Both the position numbers and the translations under genes were made by a program. A stretch of 33,883 bases of DNA from Acidobacteriota bacterium (GTDB lineage: Bacteria > Acidobacteriota > Blastocatellia > Pyrinomonadales > Pyrinomonadaceae). Under the pieces are notes generated by a model. The model had not been told where the DNA came from. It did no database searches and saw nothing but the letters and a program-made list of their open reading frames with translations. Below are positions 9,209 through 27,872 of the stretch, in pieces. Location of the stretch: the NCBI GenBank assembly GCA_029557535.1, contig JAKQII010000353.1, positions 1 through 33,883 of the forward strand, given 5' to 3'. Every line of letters begins with the position of its first letter. Position 1 is the stretch's first letter.

Positions 9209-10477
9209 ATGATCGAGGCGATCGAAACAACGAAATTCCCGAACGGACTGACGATCCTTACTGACCGCATGCCGGGTGTGCGGTCGGCGACCATCGGATT
9301 TTTCTTCAAAACCGGCGCGCGGCACGAGCCCAAAGAACTCAGCGGGATTTCGCATTTCATCGAACACGCGGTCTTTAAGGGCACGCGAACGCGGAACGCG
9401 CTCGAGATCGCGATCGAGACCGACCGGCTCGGCGGCAATTTCGATGCCTTCACCATGCACGAGGAAACGGGCTTCGCGATGAAGGTCATCGACAGCGAGT
9501 TGCCGAAGGCGTTCGAACTGCTCGCCGATCTTCTGACCGATCCGCTTTTCGACGAGAAGGAACTCAAACGCGAACAAAGGGTAATCATCGAAGAAATAAA
9601 GATGACGGACGATTCGCCCGAGGAGTACCTTCACGAGATCTTCAACGAAAAGCTCTTCCCCGGCCATCCGTTGGGACGCCCGATCGCCGGCACGCCGAAA
9701 ACGGTTCGCACCTTCGGCCATGACGTAACGAAGAAATTCCACAAAGAGTTGTTTTGCCCGTCGAACCTGGTCATCGCGGCCGCCGGAAACGTCGATCACG
9801 GTCAGATCGCCGACCTCGCGAACACGTATTTCGGCATTCAACCGTCGCAAATCCGCAATTCCAAATCCGAAATCCCAAATGTGACGGCTCCGATCGTTCT
9901 GAAAAAGAACAAAACGCTCGAGCAGGCGCATCTGATCATCTCGACGCCGTTCGTTTCGGCGACGAGCGAACGTCGGTACGCCGCAGACATCCTCGCTAAC
10001 GCGCTCGGCGGCGGAACGTCTTCGCGGCTATGGCAGAAGATCCGCGAGGAAAAAGGACTCGCCTACTCGGTCGGCGCGAGCGCCGCGATGTATCAGGACT
10101 GCGGGGTGTTCACGATATTCGCCGGAACGTCGCCGAAGCAAACCGAGCAGGTTCTGAAGATCGCGCTCAAAGAAATGCGGTCGTTAGTCCGTGACGGGAT
10201 CACGCCGGACGAACTTGATCTGATGAAGGCCCAGACCGTGTCTTCTATCCTGCTGGGACTCGAAGATTCAGCCAACCGCGCATCGACGCTGGCCCGACTG
10301 GAAATGGTTCACGGGCGGCAAATTCCGCTCGAAGAGACAATTAGGAAGGTAGAAAGTGTCACAGTCGACGAAGTACGCTCGATCGCGATCGATTACTTTC
10401 AAACCGAGAACATCGGATTCGGCGCGCTTGGCGATCTCAACGGGTTCAAAGTCACGCGGGCCCGCCTCGAAGTTTGA
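9209..10477 (+). CDS. M16-family zinc peptidase (processing-peptidase type)
   Basis: A 422-residue single-unit M16B peptidase, the typical bacterial length. The inverted zinc motif is His49-Phe-Ile-Glu52-His53 in GISHFIEHAVFKGT. The distal acid is in QRVIIEEIKM, and the second domain carries the ANALGGGTSSRLWQKIREEKGLAYSVGA segment typical of processing peptidases. No signal peptide is seen, so it probably acts in the cytoplasm. TGCTAGATT lies 15 bases before the ATG, and GAAG may serve as a weak ribosome site. Residues 214-224 (QIRNSKSEIPN) are encoded by a short-word array at 9848-9881 like those found between genes. It sits in the linker between the two halves, where an insertion could be tolerated. 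Confidence 0.92.
   Translation: MIEAIETTKFPNGLTILTDRMPGVRSATIGFFFKTGARHEPKELSGISHFIEHAVFKGTRTRNALEIAIETDRLGGNFDAFTMHEETGFAMKVIDSELPKAFELLADLLTDPLFDEKELKREQRVIIEEIKMTDDSPEEYLHEIFNEKLFPGHPLGRPIAGTPKTVRTFGHDVTKKFHKELFCPSNLVIAAAGNVDHGQIADLANTYFGIQPSQIRNSKSEIPNVTAPIVLKKNKTLEQAHLIISTPFVSATSERRYAADILANALGGGTSSRLWQKIREEKGLAYSVGASAAMYQDCGVFTIFAGTSPKQTEQVLKIALKEMRSLVRDGITPDELDLMKAQTVSSILLGLEDSANRASTLARLEMVHGRQIPLEETIRKVESVTVDEVRSIAIDYFQTENIGFGALGDLNGFKVTRARLEV
9848..9881 (+). repeat. In-frame word-repeat array inside the M16 gene (R4)
   Basis: The 34 bases are composed of the words CAAATCCGCAATT, CCAAATCCGAAATCCC and CAAATG. Nearly the same words make up the intergenic array at 27798-27833. Length and phase keep the M16 frame open, adding residues 214-224. 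Confidence 0.75.
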
Positions 10478-16251: not shown

Positions 16252-17553
16252 ATGCGCAAACAACTGAAAGATTTCATGGAGCAGATCGGGAAGGACGCGA
16301 TCGCCGTTATTCCGGCGGCTCACGAACAAACGCGGAGCTACGACACGGAGTTCAAGTTTCACCAAGACCCTGATTTTTACTATCTCACGGAATTCCCGGA
16401 GCCCGATGCGATCGCCGTCATCGATCCGGCCGCCCGAAAATCGCGGTTCACGCTTTTTGTCCGGCCGCGCGACCCGTTGATGGAAACCTGGTATGGTCGT
16501 CGCCAGGGCGTCGAGGGCGCAAAAAAGAACTACGGGGCCGACAAGGCGATGCCGATCGAGAAATTTGAGTCCGAGTTACCGAAATTGTTGAACGGCAAGG
16601 AGAAACTTTATTACCGATTCGGGCTCGACAACCGGCTTGACCAAGTGATCCTGAATTATCTCTCGGGACAGCGTTTCCGGCGTCTCAAGACGGCTTACCC
16701 GCCGCATACGATCATCGATCCGACGCTGCTCATAGGTGAAATGCGGCTGCATAAAACTCCTGAAGAAGTTGCGTTGATGCAGAAGGCGGCCGACATCGCG
16801 GCCGAAGCGCACGTCGTGGCGATGCGCGAGTGCAAGCCGGGATTGAACGAGGCGCAGATCGAAGCGATCATCGAGCACCACTTCCGGATGTCGGGCGCAG
16901 CCGGCGCGTCGTACAACTCGATCGTCGGCGGCGGCGCGAACGCGACCATCCTGCATTACGTCGAGAACAATGCTCCGCTGAAGGACGGCGACCTGCTCCT
17001 CGTCGACGCCGGCTGCGAATATCAAGGCTATGCTTCGGACATCACGCGCACGTTCCCGGTCAATGGCCGTTTCACAAAGGCGCAGCGTGAAGTTTACGAC
17101 GTCGTTCTTGAGGTCCAGTTGGAATGCCTTGCAGCGACCCGAAAAGGCGTCACCGTGAAGGACCGGCAGGATCTGTCGATCGAGCTCCTGACCGAAGGCA
17201 TGAAGAAGTTGGGACTGCTGAAAGGAAAGACGAAGGACCTGATCAAGAAAGGCGCTTACATGAAGTATTACATGCACGGCGTCGGCCACTATCTCGGACT
17301 CGACGTTCATGATGCCGGACGTTATTTCACCGAGCAGAAAGCGCGCTTTTCACGTCCGTTCGAGCCGGGAATGGTACTCACGGTCGAGCCGGGTCTTTAT
17401 ATTCCGGCGGACGACAAAACAGCGCCGGCAAAATATCGCGGTATCGGGATCAGGATCGAAGACGACATTCTGGTTACCGAAGACGGTAACGTGAACCTGA
17501 CCGTCGGCGTCCCGAAAGACGCGGATGCGATCGAGGAAATAATGAACAGCTAG
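16252..17553 (+). CDS. pepP: Xaa-Pro aminopeptidase (M24B)
   Basis: A 433-residue dinuclear metallopeptidase that removes N-terminal residues preceding proline. The N-terminal creatinase-like domain (1-165; DPDFYYLTEFPEPDA) is followed by the pita-bread catalytic domain. The metal ligands are visible: Asp in LLLVDAGCEY, Asp in ASDITRTFPV, His in MHGVGHYLGLDVHD, Glu in LTVEPGLYIP and Glu in GIRIEDD. AAGGAG 8 bases upstream fixes the start at 16252; longer frames to 16156 have no homology to the family. TTAGAAT at about 16222-16228 may be the -10 region. There is no signal peptide, so it is cytoplasmic. The stop TAG is the first three bases of the TAGACGG array. Confidence 0.94.
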   Translation: MRKQLKDFMEQIGKDAIAVIPAAHEQTRSYDTEFKFHQDPDFYYLTEFPEPDAIAVIDPAARKSRFTLFVRPRDPLMETWYGRRQGVEGAKKNYGADKAMPIEKFESELPKLLNGKEKLYYRFGLDNRLDQVILNYLSGQRFRRLKTAYPPHTIIDPTLLIGEMRLHKTPEEVALMQKAADIAAEAHVVAMRECKPGLNEAQIEAIIEHHFRMSGAAGASYNSIVGGGANATILHYVENNAPLKDGDLLLVDAGCEYQGYASDITRTFPVNGRFTKAQREVYDVVLEVQLECLAATRKGVTVKDRQDLSIELLTEGMKKLGLLKGKTKDLIKKGAYMKYYMHGVGHYLGLDVHDAGRYFTEQKARFSRPFEPGMVLTVEPGLYIPADDKTAPAKYRGIGIRIEDDILVTEDGNVNLTVGVPKDADAIEEIMNS

Positions 17554-17646
17554 ACGGTAGACGGTAGACGGTAGACGGATTCTTGCCTTTCAATCGCAAA
17601 TTGCAAATTGAAAATCGCAAATCAAGGGTCTACTGCCTACCGTCTA
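17551..17646. repeat. TAGACGG tandem array with inverted partner (R6)
   Basis: Four exact tandem copies of TAGACGG fill 17551-17578. At 17626-17646 the minus strand reads TAGACGG, TAGGCAG and TAGACCC, giving an inverted partner. Between them (17591-17623) are ATCGCAAATT/GCAAATTG words. The first TAG on each strand is the stop codon of the converging gene: the Xaa-Pro aminopeptidase and the M16-like protein. The arms can pair as a long hairpin and could act as a bidirectional terminator, although no T-run follows. Confidence 0.9.
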
Positions 17647-19014
17647 GTTCTTCTGCAGAAAAATATCCCGGTTGATCGCGGCCGGATCACCGATCACGAC
17701 AAAGCGGATATTCTTCATGTACTTCTGCGCGACGCGGCGAATGTCCGTGTCTCTGACCTCCCGGATCCGGTCGATGAACTCATACGATTTCTTCCAACCG
17801 CCTCCTGCAAGTTCGTACCGCGCGAGCGATCCGGCCTGTGCGGCATTCGTCTCTTCGCCAAGATAATAGGTTGTCAAAAAGTAGTTCGAGACGGCGGAGA
17901 TCTCTGACCGATCGACGAGCCGGGTTTTCAACAGATTGATCTCCTGCAGCATCACGCTGATTGCCTGGTTCGCGTCGTTTGCGGTCACATAAATGTTTGC
18001 TGTGTTGGTCGCGGTGGCATTGATCTCGGCGTTCGGAGCGTAGGAAAGCTGACGCTTTACGCGGACCTCGCGGAAGAACTGAGCCTGCAGAAGACTGATC
18101 GCGACGCGCATCGGATAATAATCGGGACTTCCCGGTGGCGGCGCGTCAAAGACTCCCTTGATATAGTTCGTCGGCAAGTCTCTCTGGACGACCTCCAACG
18201 TCGGTTTTGAAAAATCAATTTGCGGCAACGACGTATCCTCGTATTCGCCTCGGGGCAATTTCCCGAAGGTTGACGCCACTTTTTCCCTGATTGCCTGAGG
18301 ATCGAGATCGCCGACAAAGACAAGCAGAAGCTGTGACGTCTGCATAACCTTCTTGTGGTGTCCCCGGAGCTGTGCCAAAGTGAATTTCGAAACGGTTTCG
18401 AGCGAGCCGTCAGTTTCGAAAGAGTACGGATGGCCGGTATAAACGACGCGGTTCTCCAGAACGTCAAGATAATTATCGGGATTCGTCTCAGACTCTTTGA
18501 GGCCCGTCATGATCTGTTCCCGGACGCGCTCGACGTCGGCCGGGGCAAAGACGGGGTTGATAACAACGTCGGCGAATAATTCCCACATTCGGTCAAAATT
18601 CGGGCGCGTCACGCCAAGTGAAAAGACACTGAAGTCCTTTCCGGCCGTACCGCCGACGGTCGATCCGGTACGGGCGAGTTCGCGGCGAACGACATCGCGC
18701 TTGAACTTTGCCCCGGCTTCGATCGAAGCGTTGATCATGAAATTCTCAAGACCGGCCGTCTTATCGGAGCTGTTGCGAACACCACCGCGAACGAAAAGTC
18801 CAGCGGCAACCGTTTCCGCGTTCGGACGCCGTTTGACCAGAACTTTCAGTCCGTTGACCTCGAATTCGGTCACCTGCGACGCGCCATCCGCCGATCGCGG
18901 CGCGCCTCCGGCTTGTGCCATCGCGGCCGACGCCGCAAGAGTCATCGTCAGCAGCAAGAATGCCAGTCGTCTCCCAACGATTTCAAAACGAGTTGATTTC
19001 ATATTCCTTACCAT
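17644..19014 (-). CDS. Secreted M16-like protein lacking the zinc motif
   Basis: A 456-residue exported M16 homologue with an N-terminal signal peptide (about residues 10-34, ending AMAQ). The fold is clear: FEVNGLKVLVKRRPNAETVAAGLFVRGG at the start, a GLRGHH-like middle segment and FREVRVKRQLSYAPNAEI in the second half. Where active members have HxxEH, this one reads GLENFMINAS, with no histidines, so it should not bind zinc. It lies 16 bases downstream of an M16 protein with an intact site, the known pattern of two-subunit M16 peptidases (catalytic plus inactive, substrate-holding partner). The stop codon is within repeat R6. The start is either the ATG at 19014 or the one at 19002; GGAG is 12 bases before the first, and AAGGA is too close to the second. 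Confidence 0.88.
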   Translation of the reverse strand: MVRNMKSTRFEIVGRRLAFLLLTMTLAASAAMAQAGGAPRSADGASQVTEFEVNGLKVLVKRRPNAETVAAGLFVRGGVRNSSDKTAGLENFMINASIEAGAKFKRDVVRRELARTGSTVGGTAGKDFSVFSLGVTRPNFDRMWELFADVVINPVFAPADVERVREQIMTGLKESETNPDNYLDVLENRVVYTGHPYSFETDGSLETVSKFTLAQLRGHHKKVMQTSQLLLVFVGDLDPQAIREKVASTFGKLPRGEYEDTSLPQIDFSKPTLEVVQRDLPTNYIKGVFDAPPPGSPDYYPMRVAISLLQAQFFREVRVKRQLSYAPNAEINATATNTANIYVTANDANQAISVMLQEINLLKTRLVDRSEISAVSNYFLTTYYLGEETNAAQAGSLARYELAGGGWKKSYEFIDRIREVRDTDIRRVAQKYMKNIRFVVIGDPAAINRDIFLQKN

Positions 19015-19030
19015 TTTCGACCGAGGCTCC

Positions 19031-20569
19031 TCACCTGCCGATCAGATCCGTTTCCGTCAAATTTGCGGCGGCCTTTGCGCGCGGCGAAACAAGCGCCACT
19101 CCGACGTGATCCTTGCCGAGAATGTAGGTGCGCAGGTAGCGATTGATCCCGTCGCGGTTCGTGGCCCGGAGGTTCTTGTGATACCCGCGGAAGTACTCAA
19201 TCCCGGTCGATGACCACCAGAAGCTCAGGGTATGCGCGTACTCGCTGAGTTTTTCACGGTCGAACAGATCGCGCGACTCGAGGATCGTCGTCGCGCTCTC
19301 AAGTTCTTCGTCCGTGAAATAGTTGGGCTTGTCGAATTGCGCGATCTCGGTGTAAAGAGCTTTGATCGCAGCCTTAGCGCGCTCGGGCGAAGTGACGAGA
19401 ACAACCTGGATCGGGCCAACGTTGCGCTGGGTGTAGTAATTGATGCTCGCGCTCGTCGCCAGTCCGCTGTCGACCAAGGCGCGCTGGAACCTTGAATCCG
19501 GCTGAGCCAGGATGTACGAGAACACGTCCGCGGCGTACGTCGATGCATCGTCCTTGCCGATCGAAGGTCCGTGCCATCCGATCTGGATGAAAACGTTCTC
19601 CGCACCGTCCCGATCGATGTTCTTCTCAACGATCACGCCTTCGCTTTTCGGCAACGGCGGATGCTCGACCATCGGGAATTCCTTGAATGGCTCAACCGCA
19701 CGGCGCGGCCATTTTCCGAAGTACTTTTCGGCAAGCTCGAAGACCTTTTGCGGATCGGCATCACCGGTCACGACCAGAGCCGAGTTGTTCGGCACGTAAT
19801 ATCGGCCCTGAATGAGTTTCATCTTCTCGGTTGTCGCGGCGAGCACCGAAGCGCGCGTCCCGAGCGGATTCTTCCGGCTCGGATACTTGAAATAGAGTCG
19901 GTCGTTGATCGCGCGGTCGAGATAATAAAACGGATTCGACTCGTTGCGGTCGATCTCGCCGACGACAACGCGGATCTCATCATCGAGCTCCTGCGAATCG
20001 AATGTCGGAACCTGGATCGAATGGCTCATGTACTGCAGGGCCGTTTCGATGTTCGAACTGGTCGTGTTCAGGTAGTAGTTGACGACCTCCTCACGGGTCG
20101 ACGCGTTGGACGTCATACCGATGTTGTCGATGTCGTAAAGGTAGGCCGTGTCTCCGATCTCCGGCTTCAGCTTCAGGGTCTCGGCACATCCGGCGCCAAA
20201 AAAGTAATTCGTGTTCTTCTCGGCCCGCGCCCGTTCGCAATTGAACACGTAGATCGCCTTGTTGGGCTTGAAATACATGTGTTCGTAAAGATGCGACAGT
20301 CCGTTCAGGTCGGGCGGTTCGGTGAACGAGCCGTTGCGGACCGCAATCTCGACGGTGAGCAGCGGAACGCTCGAGTCCTGCAACACGATCACTTCGAGTC
20401 CGTTCGGCAGGACCTTGTTCACGAACGGTATCTCGATACCGACCTGCGCAGGTTTTGTGGCCGGAACCGGCTTCGAACTGTTCGGTTGCGCCACTTTCCG
20501 GCTTTGTGCAAAACTGAAGTTCGTCGTGATCGCTGTGATCAGGACTAAACCAAGGAACGATTTTTTCAC
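19031..20569 (-). CDS. Secreted M16 zinc peptidase, catalytic subunit
   Basis: About 512 residues from a GTG at 20569, chosen because GGGAG lies 7 bases upstream and a clean signal peptide (KKSFLGLVLITAITTNFSFAQ) follows. The longer frame to 20959 reads through the neighbouring plus-strand gene and is not real. The zinc site is His93-Leu-Tyr-Glu96-His97 in LSHLYEHMYF, with the distal glutamate in VVVGEIDRNE. After the zinc motif there is an unusual stretch (about residues 100-150) with two cysteines (FNCERARAE, FGAGCAETL) before the conserved NASTREEVVNYY. The protein is periplasmic or outer-membrane facing and is very probably paired with the inactive homologue encoded 16 bases downstream. 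Confidence 0.9.
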   Translation of the reverse strand: MKKSFLGLVLITAITTNFSFAQSRKVAQPNSSKPVPATKPAQVGIEIPFVNKVLPNGLEVIVLQDSSVPLLTVEIAVRNGSFTEPPDLNGLSHLYEHMYFKPNKAIYVFNCERARAEKNTNYFFGAGCAETLKLKPEIGDTAYLYDIDNIGMTSNASTREEVVNYYLNTTSSNIETALQYMSHSIQVPTFDSQELDDEIRVVVGEIDRNESNPFYYLDRAINDRLYFKYPSRKNPLGTRASVLAATTEKMKLIQGRYYVPNNSALVVTGDADPQKVFELAEKYFGKWPRRAVEPFKEFPMVEHPPLPKSEGVIVEKNIDRDGAENVFIQIGWHGPSIGKDDASTYAADVFSYILAQPDSRFQRALVDSGLATSASINYYTQRNVGPIQVVLVTSPERAKAAIKALYTEIAQFDKPNYFTDEELESATTILESRDLFDREKLSEYAHTLSFWWSSTGIEYFRGYHKNLRATNRDGINRYLRTYILGKDHVGVALVSPRAKAAANLTETDLIGR

Positions 20570-20707: not shown

Positions 20708-20923
20708 ATGGAACGAGACAATTTGATGCATGGGGCCCGGACAGCGATGAACCGCAGCCCCGAGATCCGCGAATGGGCGGAGAACTATCTGAAGGCGAAA
20801 ACACGTACCGAAAACGAGTCGATGTCGGACGAGGAATTCGAAAAATACTGGAAGTACCACAAGCCCGAGATCATGCACGCCGGCGCCGCTGAAGCGATCG
20901 AGGCTTATAAGAGTGAGCGGTGA
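20708..20923 (+). CDS. Small acidic helical protein, unknown function
   Basis: A 71-residue frame from the ATG at 20708, with AAGGA just upstream. It is hydrophilic and rich in Glu, Lys and Ala (REWAENYLKAKTRT, EEFEKYWKYHKPEIMH), predicted mainly helical, with no cysteines or membrane segment. I do not recognise a family. Composition and codon choice match real genes nearby. It is divergent from the M16 pair and convergent with the nuclease. Its last three residues, SER, and its TGA stop are written in GTGAGC repeat words, as in the P450 gene. The native C-terminus may therefore have been different. Confidence 0.55.
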   Translation: MERDNLMHGARTAMNRSPEIREWAENYLKAKTRTENESMSDEEFEKYWKYHKPEIMHAGAAEAIEAYKSER

Positions 20924-21028
20924 GCAGTGAGCGGTCGATTTGCAATTTTCGATTTGCAATTTGCGATCGTTCGATCAGACCGACGGCTTTCTGCTTGCTG
21001 CTCACGGCTCACTGCTCACTGCTCACTG
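20912..21028. repeat. GTGAGC word array with inverted partner (R7)
   Basis: At 20912-20933 the plus strand reads AGTGAGCGGTGAGCAGTGAG and on. At 20998-21028 the minus strand reads CAGTGAGCAGTGAGCAGTGA followed by GCCGTGAGCAGC. Between them are TCGATTTGCAATT words (20935-20966). The stop codons of the small gene (20921-20923) and the nuclease (21023-21025) are both the TGA of a GTGAGC unit. The arms can form a long hairpin between the convergent genes. Confidence 0.9.
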
Positions 21029-27466: not shown

Positions 27467-27872
27467 GAATTTCGATTTCAGGGATTTGGGATTGGCTTCC
27501 GGACGTCGGGTTCGGGAGCCATTTTCCATTTGGGATTTGGGGTTTGGGATTGCGAATTGGATGCAGAAACGCGCACGAAGTAAGCGTGCATGCTCGCGGA
27601 GCGAGCAATCTCATGTGAAAATTGGGATTCTCAGTTCGCGCTGTTTCGCGTTGAATGGTGGTCGCTCTCGTCAGATGTAATTTGGTGTTCCCGCATTGAC
27701 GCGAAGTCGCAAAGAACGGAATTCGATTGCGGAGACGCGCGGCGTTCAGGTCCTCGGAACCGAGCTCGATTGATCGTCCCCAGATGAATTCGTAGATCCG
27801 AAATCCGCAATCCGAAATCCCACATCCCAAATGGAAAAGGGGCGGCCCGAAGACCGCCCGAATGATTCAAGA
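27467..27872. repeat. 406-base convergent gap filled with word arrays (R8)
   Basis: No gene is seen here; a 147-codon minus frame is just translated repeat. At 27468-27494 are ATTTCGATTTCAGGG/ATTTGGGATTGG words. At 27526-27560 a second array (CCATTTGGGATTTGGGG and TTTGGGATTGCGAATTGG) has an inverted partner at 27798-27833 built from AATCCGCAATCCGAAATCCC. Inside lie two hairpins, GCACG/CGTGC (27573-27589) and GCTCGC/GCGAGC (27592-27606), and a GACGCGAAGTCGCAAAGAACGG word run near 27700-27720. The rest is unremarkable. The same words occur inside the M16 gene at 9848-9881. Confidence 0.85.
27832..27859 (-). terminator. Rho-independent terminator of the permease operon
   Basis: On the minus strand GGGCGG and CCGCCC (27859-27854 and 27845-27840) form a 6-bp GC stem with an 8-base loop, followed by CCTTTTCC. 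It lies 14 bases downstream of the permease stop codon at 27873. Confidence 0.6.

Follow-up and report, generated by a model that had tools for sequence, protein, structure and literature searches.

M16 peptidase gene and its repeat segment

The window, i.e. the whole stretch of 33,883 bases that was analysed, is one contig (C402) of a 4.77 Mb assembly comprising 404 contigs; the nearest named matches belong to the Pyrinomonadaceae (Acidobacteriota). It encodes an M16 peptidase in which a short period-7 array is translated in frame as part of the linker between the two lobes, while further members of the same repeat family lie between genes. The relevant features are:

9209..10477, plus strand: host gene, coding sequence of an M16 (pitrilysin-type, M16B-size) zinc peptidase of 422 aa, with PF00675 (6.7e-35) and PF05193 (2.5e-39)
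9353..9367, plus strand: zinc-binding motif HFIEH, residues 49-53, invariant in 38 aligned homologues
9833..9892, plus strand: inter-lobe linker, residues 209-228, without secondary structure in the AlphaFold2 model
9848..9881, plus strand: period-7 array of the units CAAATCC, GCAATTC, CAAATCC, GAAATCC and CAAATG, read in frame as residues 214-224 and a near copy of one dispersed-element arm
27519..27559, minus strand: left arm of an intergenic palindromic element, reading CCCAAATGG... outward, of the same family as the M16 segment
27796..27833, plus strand: right arm that completes this intergenic element (27519-27833) and ends in CCCAAATG, likewise of the family of the M16 segment

Both M16 Pfam domains of the host protein scored above cut-off, and the best solved relative was the 'Processing protease' 3hdi (E 1.8e-74). 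Downstream of the HxxEH motif, E128/E129 are likewise invariant across the 38 aligned homologues, and the ORF is uninterrupted, with the frame preserved through the repeat segment. In the AlphaFold2 model, based on 38 sequences, the linker sits between helix 197-208 and strand 229-233, and the block of residues 211-220 shows the lowest pLDDT of the entire model (64, compared to a mean of 94.2). The preliminary description had placed the segment in an exposed inter-lobe linker with the frame kept, which agrees with the modelled loop and the intact ORF; judged by the model, the linker is the permissive place that would be expected. Two further, divergent M16 homologues are encoded on the minus strand of the window (17686-20134).

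Residues Q214-N224 (QIRNSKSEIPN) are encoded by the 34 bases CAAATCCGCAATTCCAAATCCGAAATCCCAAATG at 9848-9881, and Tandem Repeats Finder reported a period-7/14 array at 9848-9880. Comparison with the intergenic array at 27796-27833 revealed exact recurrences of CCGAAATCCC and CCCAAATG, whereas only the core AAATCCGCAAT of CAAATCCGCAATT recurs there; apart from this last word, the earlier assignment of the segment to intergenic repeat words was accurate in both coordinates and words. The segment furthermore matches one arm of a dispersed composite, including its usual CCCAAATG end with the terminal G, and it is mainly this match within its own genome by which the array is recognised, its plain lag-7 score being low (9.5, p 0.0075). 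A BLAST comparison of the repeat region with its own genome listed at least 50 matches, the best non-self match being identical at 34/35 positions (E 7.6e-10). Within 890 kb of the genome, 98 places matched the M16 34-mer at 26/34 positions or more, a number that is biased upward and does not represent a genome-wide density, as the contigs fetched were partly picked for hits; the reversed 34-mer, 20 shuffles and 19 other 34-mers of the M16 gene gave 0 such places in the same DNA. The match between the M16 segment and the intergenic array is far beyond chance, and derivation of the segment from the intergenic repeat family of this genome is supported.

The dispersed heptamer element

Inverted arm pairs of the form CATTTGGG...loop...CCCAAATG are common among the dispersed copies (e.g. 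L146 10122-10209 and window 27519-27833), many of which carry the terminal CCCAAATG, and the copies are not plain heptamer runs. The units of an arm are ordered: of 47 arms, 13 begin with CCGCAAT and a single one ends with it, and 27 end with CCCAAAT. This order led to the conclusion that an arm is copied whole, as a composite, and does not build up one unit at a time. Period-7 arrays numbered 85 in 398 kb, with 0-9 for other periods except for the harmonic 14, and 241 in the 890 kb of own-genome contigs partly picked for hits; the genome has many further heptamer words. Four GGG tracts occur in some arms, while other arms (GGATTTC) are devoid of them. Direct reading of the sequence shows that (CCCAAAT)n is stop-free in all six frames, and the frame therefore stays open after any copy that alters the length by a net multiple of three.

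The Y1 transposase family PF01797 was detected in all 14 genomes searched (1-21 matches each), but its counts did not correspond to array load and thus lend no support to spread driven by a REP-transposase. Neither a mobilising enzyme nor a direct mechanism for the spread of the elements was identified.

Linkers of M16 orthologues

Orthologues from the same genus are also 422 aa long with a linker of equal length, and class-level relatives that lack repeats have linkers of overlapping length. All or nearly all of the genomes compared at this linker are metagenome-assembled. The segment had been proposed as an addition of 10-12 residues; given the equal linker length within the genus, a lineage-unique insertion in the M16 gene was discarded. 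The repeat words in the linker had likewise been taken as unique to the lineage, yet ten clade relatives (L065-L073 and L099) carry heptamer-derived linkers of other words at the same place: CCGAAAT in L066, CCAAAAT in L070 and L099, CCAAAGT in L071, CCAAAAA/CCAAAGA in L072, CCGAAGA in L073, and CGCAAAT in L065, while L067 and L069 have decayed CCGAAAA or CCAAAAA and L068 has a degenerate form. Conservation of the residues in orthologues from genomes lacking the words, named in the preliminary description as evidence against acquisition, was not found. When the linker was omitted from tree building, the window and the ten relatives formed one clade (86/94), with L065 as nearest relative of the window.

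The lag-7 periodicity of the linker exceeded a synonymous-codon null in the window and eight relatives (L065-L067, L070-L073, L099; p 0.0005-0.019), the linkers of L068 and L069 were not significant against the same null, and outside the linker the lag-7 score never rose above 9 in any of these M16 genes. Selection for a flexible linker rich in K, P, N and E might in principle yield repeat-like DNA via codon use, and the linker is indeed disordered and variable in all orthologues. However, the periodicity is lost when the same peptides are synonymously recoded, equally flexible linkers outside the clade lack it, and the segment has near-exact matches in intergenic DNA. Such a coincidence at the protein level is hardly credible, and convergence was ruled out by the synonymous-codon null.

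The linker word is not equal to the dominant intergenic word of the respective genome. CCAAAAT-type arrays lead the best matches in several genomes with differently worded linkers, and the idea that the linker word tracks the commonest intergenic word was dropped for this reason; the data thus lend no support to simple, repeated conversion by whichever element is most common. As a separate observation, the genome of L066 (G041, also G002) contains 2661 matches to CCRAARWCCRAARW versus 17 for the reversed control, a massive expansion of one heptamer class. The M16 linker of L119 (JAHBYL010000121.1, labelled Parvibaculum) is identical to that of the Acidobacteria MAG L078, and this contig is probably misbinned.

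Measured from a downstream Ala-Pro anchor, nine relatives have their arrays in a common register, each array ending on a Pro codon conserved throughout the family, while the array of the window is one base off. The relatives' arrays end on native codons, e.g. CCC GAA ATC, which contains CCGAAAT. The shared register of the nine and the offset of the window fit an old array whose units changed species by species, followed by rewriting in the window lineage. Alternatively, the window linker could descend from the ancestral array of the clade through point mutations plus a short deletion at its boundary, with no acquisition in this lineage. Heptamer-derived linkers are indeed found in all other clade members, and a 6-base boundary deletion alone would give the one-base register difference; on the other hand, the nearest relative L065 carries a different word, CGCAAAT, and the window array matches the composite of its own genome at up to 34/35 positions, the terminal G included. 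Pure inheritance of this kind is possible, though doubtful. The window copy was probably rewritten within its lineage, a reading weighed at about 60:40 relative to inheritance plus a boundary indel, the figure being held at about 60% because the deletion could also shift the register.

Outlying lineages carry other repeats in this linker. The linker of L084 is a TTCAAAG array with many copies elsewhere in its own genome, that of L087 is a 51-base REP-like palindrome read as SPAFRRQAASRLKAGL with dozens of copies in its own genome, and that of L074 contains a repeat of about 30 bases that likewise recurs many times elsewhere in its own genome. The linker of L079 (TTCAGCC) had one 28/28 copy among the matches listed, and that of L076 retrieved only itself and weak matches from its own genome. 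At least three outlying lineages thus carry other dispersed repeats in the M16 linker, and the copies of the L084, L087 and L074 linkers elsewhere in their genomes imply that this linker has received different dispersed repeats several times.

In-frame arrays in other genes

A scan for arrays inside long frames of the fetched own-genome DNA, filtered for Pfam support, revealed five further host genes:

Leucyl-tRNA synthetase (LeuRS), two sites, residues 259-288 and 756-766: in-frame arrays, Pfam-supported
2-oxoacid dehydrogenase E2, residues 134-146: between lipoyl and E3-binding domains
Topoisomerase I (TopA), residues 677-687: between zinc ribbons
XdhA-like protein, residues 181-192 and 232-243: between Fer2_2 and FAD domains
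XdhC, residues 174-201: between its two domains

Within the host genes, the stretches span about 34-90 bp, correspond to whole or half elements, are built of heptamers whose words differ by species, and lie in or adjoining loops or inter-domain linkers. Arrays occupy the E2 linker in the window genome, G002 and G008, and the TopA linker in the window genome and G002. The first LeuRS site represents a clean insertion of about 19 residues comprising both inverted arms and the loop, which is absent from 19 relatives, two of the same genus among them; G002 has a smaller, different insert. The claim that the repeat process reaches coding DNA and is tolerated is well supported by in-frame copies in LeuRS, E2, TopA, XdhC and the XdhA-like protein, which are clearer than the M16 case. 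The phenomenon is wider than previously claimed, yet it is not a lineage-specific addition in M16.

Arrays within ORFs of L145, L152 and L154 lie in frames without Pfam support and were excluded from the conserved host genes. Among these, an 85-base GGGGAAA-type array (L145 12272-12356) is open in frame within a 684-codon frame without Pfam match, which is hydrophobic and membrane-like, and the array yields (PFxLFHFSPF)n. In genome G003, a 28-base non-heptamer repeat, TCAGAACCATCTGCGGTAGCGGATGGGT, encodes the peptide SEPSAVADG in frame in both LeuRS (L230) and E2 (L258).

Since most of the genomes are MAGs and repeats misassemble easily, the arrays might be artefacts of assembly or binning. 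We regard this as highly improbable: the M16 ORF is intact, several genes carry arrays in frame, and analogous arrays recur at identical codon positions in genomes that different studies assembled independently.

The arrays could also have grown in situ, with a short native match (CCC GAA ATC in M16, GTG GAT TTC in LeuRS) being amplified by replication slippage and without any outside copy. This would fit the nine M16 arrays ending on the conserved Pro codon, with native codons holding the heptamer, as well as the LeuRS insert, which begins on native GGATTTC; heptamers are moreover the commonest class of 5-11 nt repeats in many genomes, for which polymerase slippage has been proposed (PMC4679880). 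Slippage by one unit, however, breaks the frame, the window array shows mixed units with the order and the CCCAAATG end of the dispersed copies, and both inverted arms plus loop, as in LeuRS, are not a slippage product. Growth in situ is accordingly an unlikely origin.

Origin of the linker sequence

Taken together, the reading we favour, with a probability of about 0.7 for the explanation as a whole, is that an arm of a dispersed element serves as the M16 linker, that such elements enter genes and persist in permissive linkers, and that the window copy was rewritten. Elements would be copied into genes at random, probably by template switching during replication or repair or by slippage at short homologies. 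Copies that break the frame or fall into folded parts would be removed, while those in permissive linkers whose net length change is divisible by three may survive there and supplant the earlier linker. In M16, the array would be old in the clade, its unit sequence having turned over between species with little change in linker length, and within the window lineage a resident element would have been the source from which the copy was rewritten. It is possible that copies entered or grew where the native sequence holds a short match to the unit (GGATTTC in LeuRS, CCGAAAT in the M16 relatives), although these two sequence matches are two cases and not a test. A stronger version, in which a process across the Pyrinomonadaceae repeatedly writes intergenic repeats into the same core-enzyme linkers by templated copying rather than point mutation, guided by short native matches, appears improbable to us. 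Since the same kind of DNA is found in the linkers of several enzymes and of related species, non-coding repeats are raw material for protein linkers.

Comparison with known repeat systems

The closest known system is that of the Rickettsia palindromic elements (RPEs), dispersed palindromes that occur between genes and in frame in many unrelated housekeeping genes, where the protein tolerates them (PMC10969869). The elements described herein resemble RPEs in being palindromic, dispersed, and both intergenic and in frame (LeuRS, E2, TopA, XdhC, XdhA-like, M16). RPEs measure about 150 bp and encode a conserved peptide, whereas the heptamer elements are shorter, use many words and often consist of one arm; lacking this length and peptide, they are set apart from RPEs by description and not by sequence. 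Unlike RPEs, they reside in Acidobacteriota, and different species fill one and the same linker with different words.

Intergenic repeats with 7-base units have been described in Xanthomonas (GGGAATC) and Nostoc (GGGGA(T/C)T), along with the cyanobacterial STRR sequences (PMC4692102). The own-genome arrays likewise consist of over-represented, dispersed 7-base tandem units (here GGGATTT/CCCAAAT), and share with these repeats, as presented there, about four units per array, some inverted pairs and a mostly intergenic location. In the accessible sections of that study, the Xanthomonas and Nostoc repeats were treated as possible G-quadruplexes, intragenic copies were left out of the transcript analysis, and use as protein linkers is not described (PMC4692102). 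The TAACTGA heptanucleotide direct repeats of marine Beggiatoaceae are mostly intergenic with few copies in ORFs (PMC4679880); they contain stops in all three forward frames, and their copies within ORFs sit at protein ends, while the arrays described herein are stop-free and internal. Tandem repeats within ORFs of Borgs make disordered segments and turn over rapidly (PMC9879509), but their units are divisible by three and near perfect, in contrast to the unit of 7 found here in dispersed palindromes, which keep the frame via net length only.

A search of the accessible literature yielded no paper on in-frame repeat linkers in Acidobacteriota. Bacterial examples of selfish or non-coding repeats that are read in frame as parts of proteins come mainly from Rickettsia. 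The present cases are from free-living Acidobacteriota; they involve unrelated short elements and core enzymes, and several lineages have been hit in the same linkers. These cases represent natural replicates of how non-coding DNA becomes protein and of where proteins tolerate such DNA, and the many Pyrinomonadaceae genomes make presence or absence and word turnover datable.

Further arrays in the window and assembly

Additional period-7 arrays of other words were observed in the window: an inverted pair with the word ATTCAAG (178-208 and 345-379), four copies of TAGACGG adjoining AATCGCA (17551-17623), and an array of the words GTGAGCG/ATTTGCA/CTGCTCA (20913-21028). Elsewhere in the assembly, a very long (GCAGTGA)n array spans the join of L156 1-136 and L155 19951-20000 (G000:C331).
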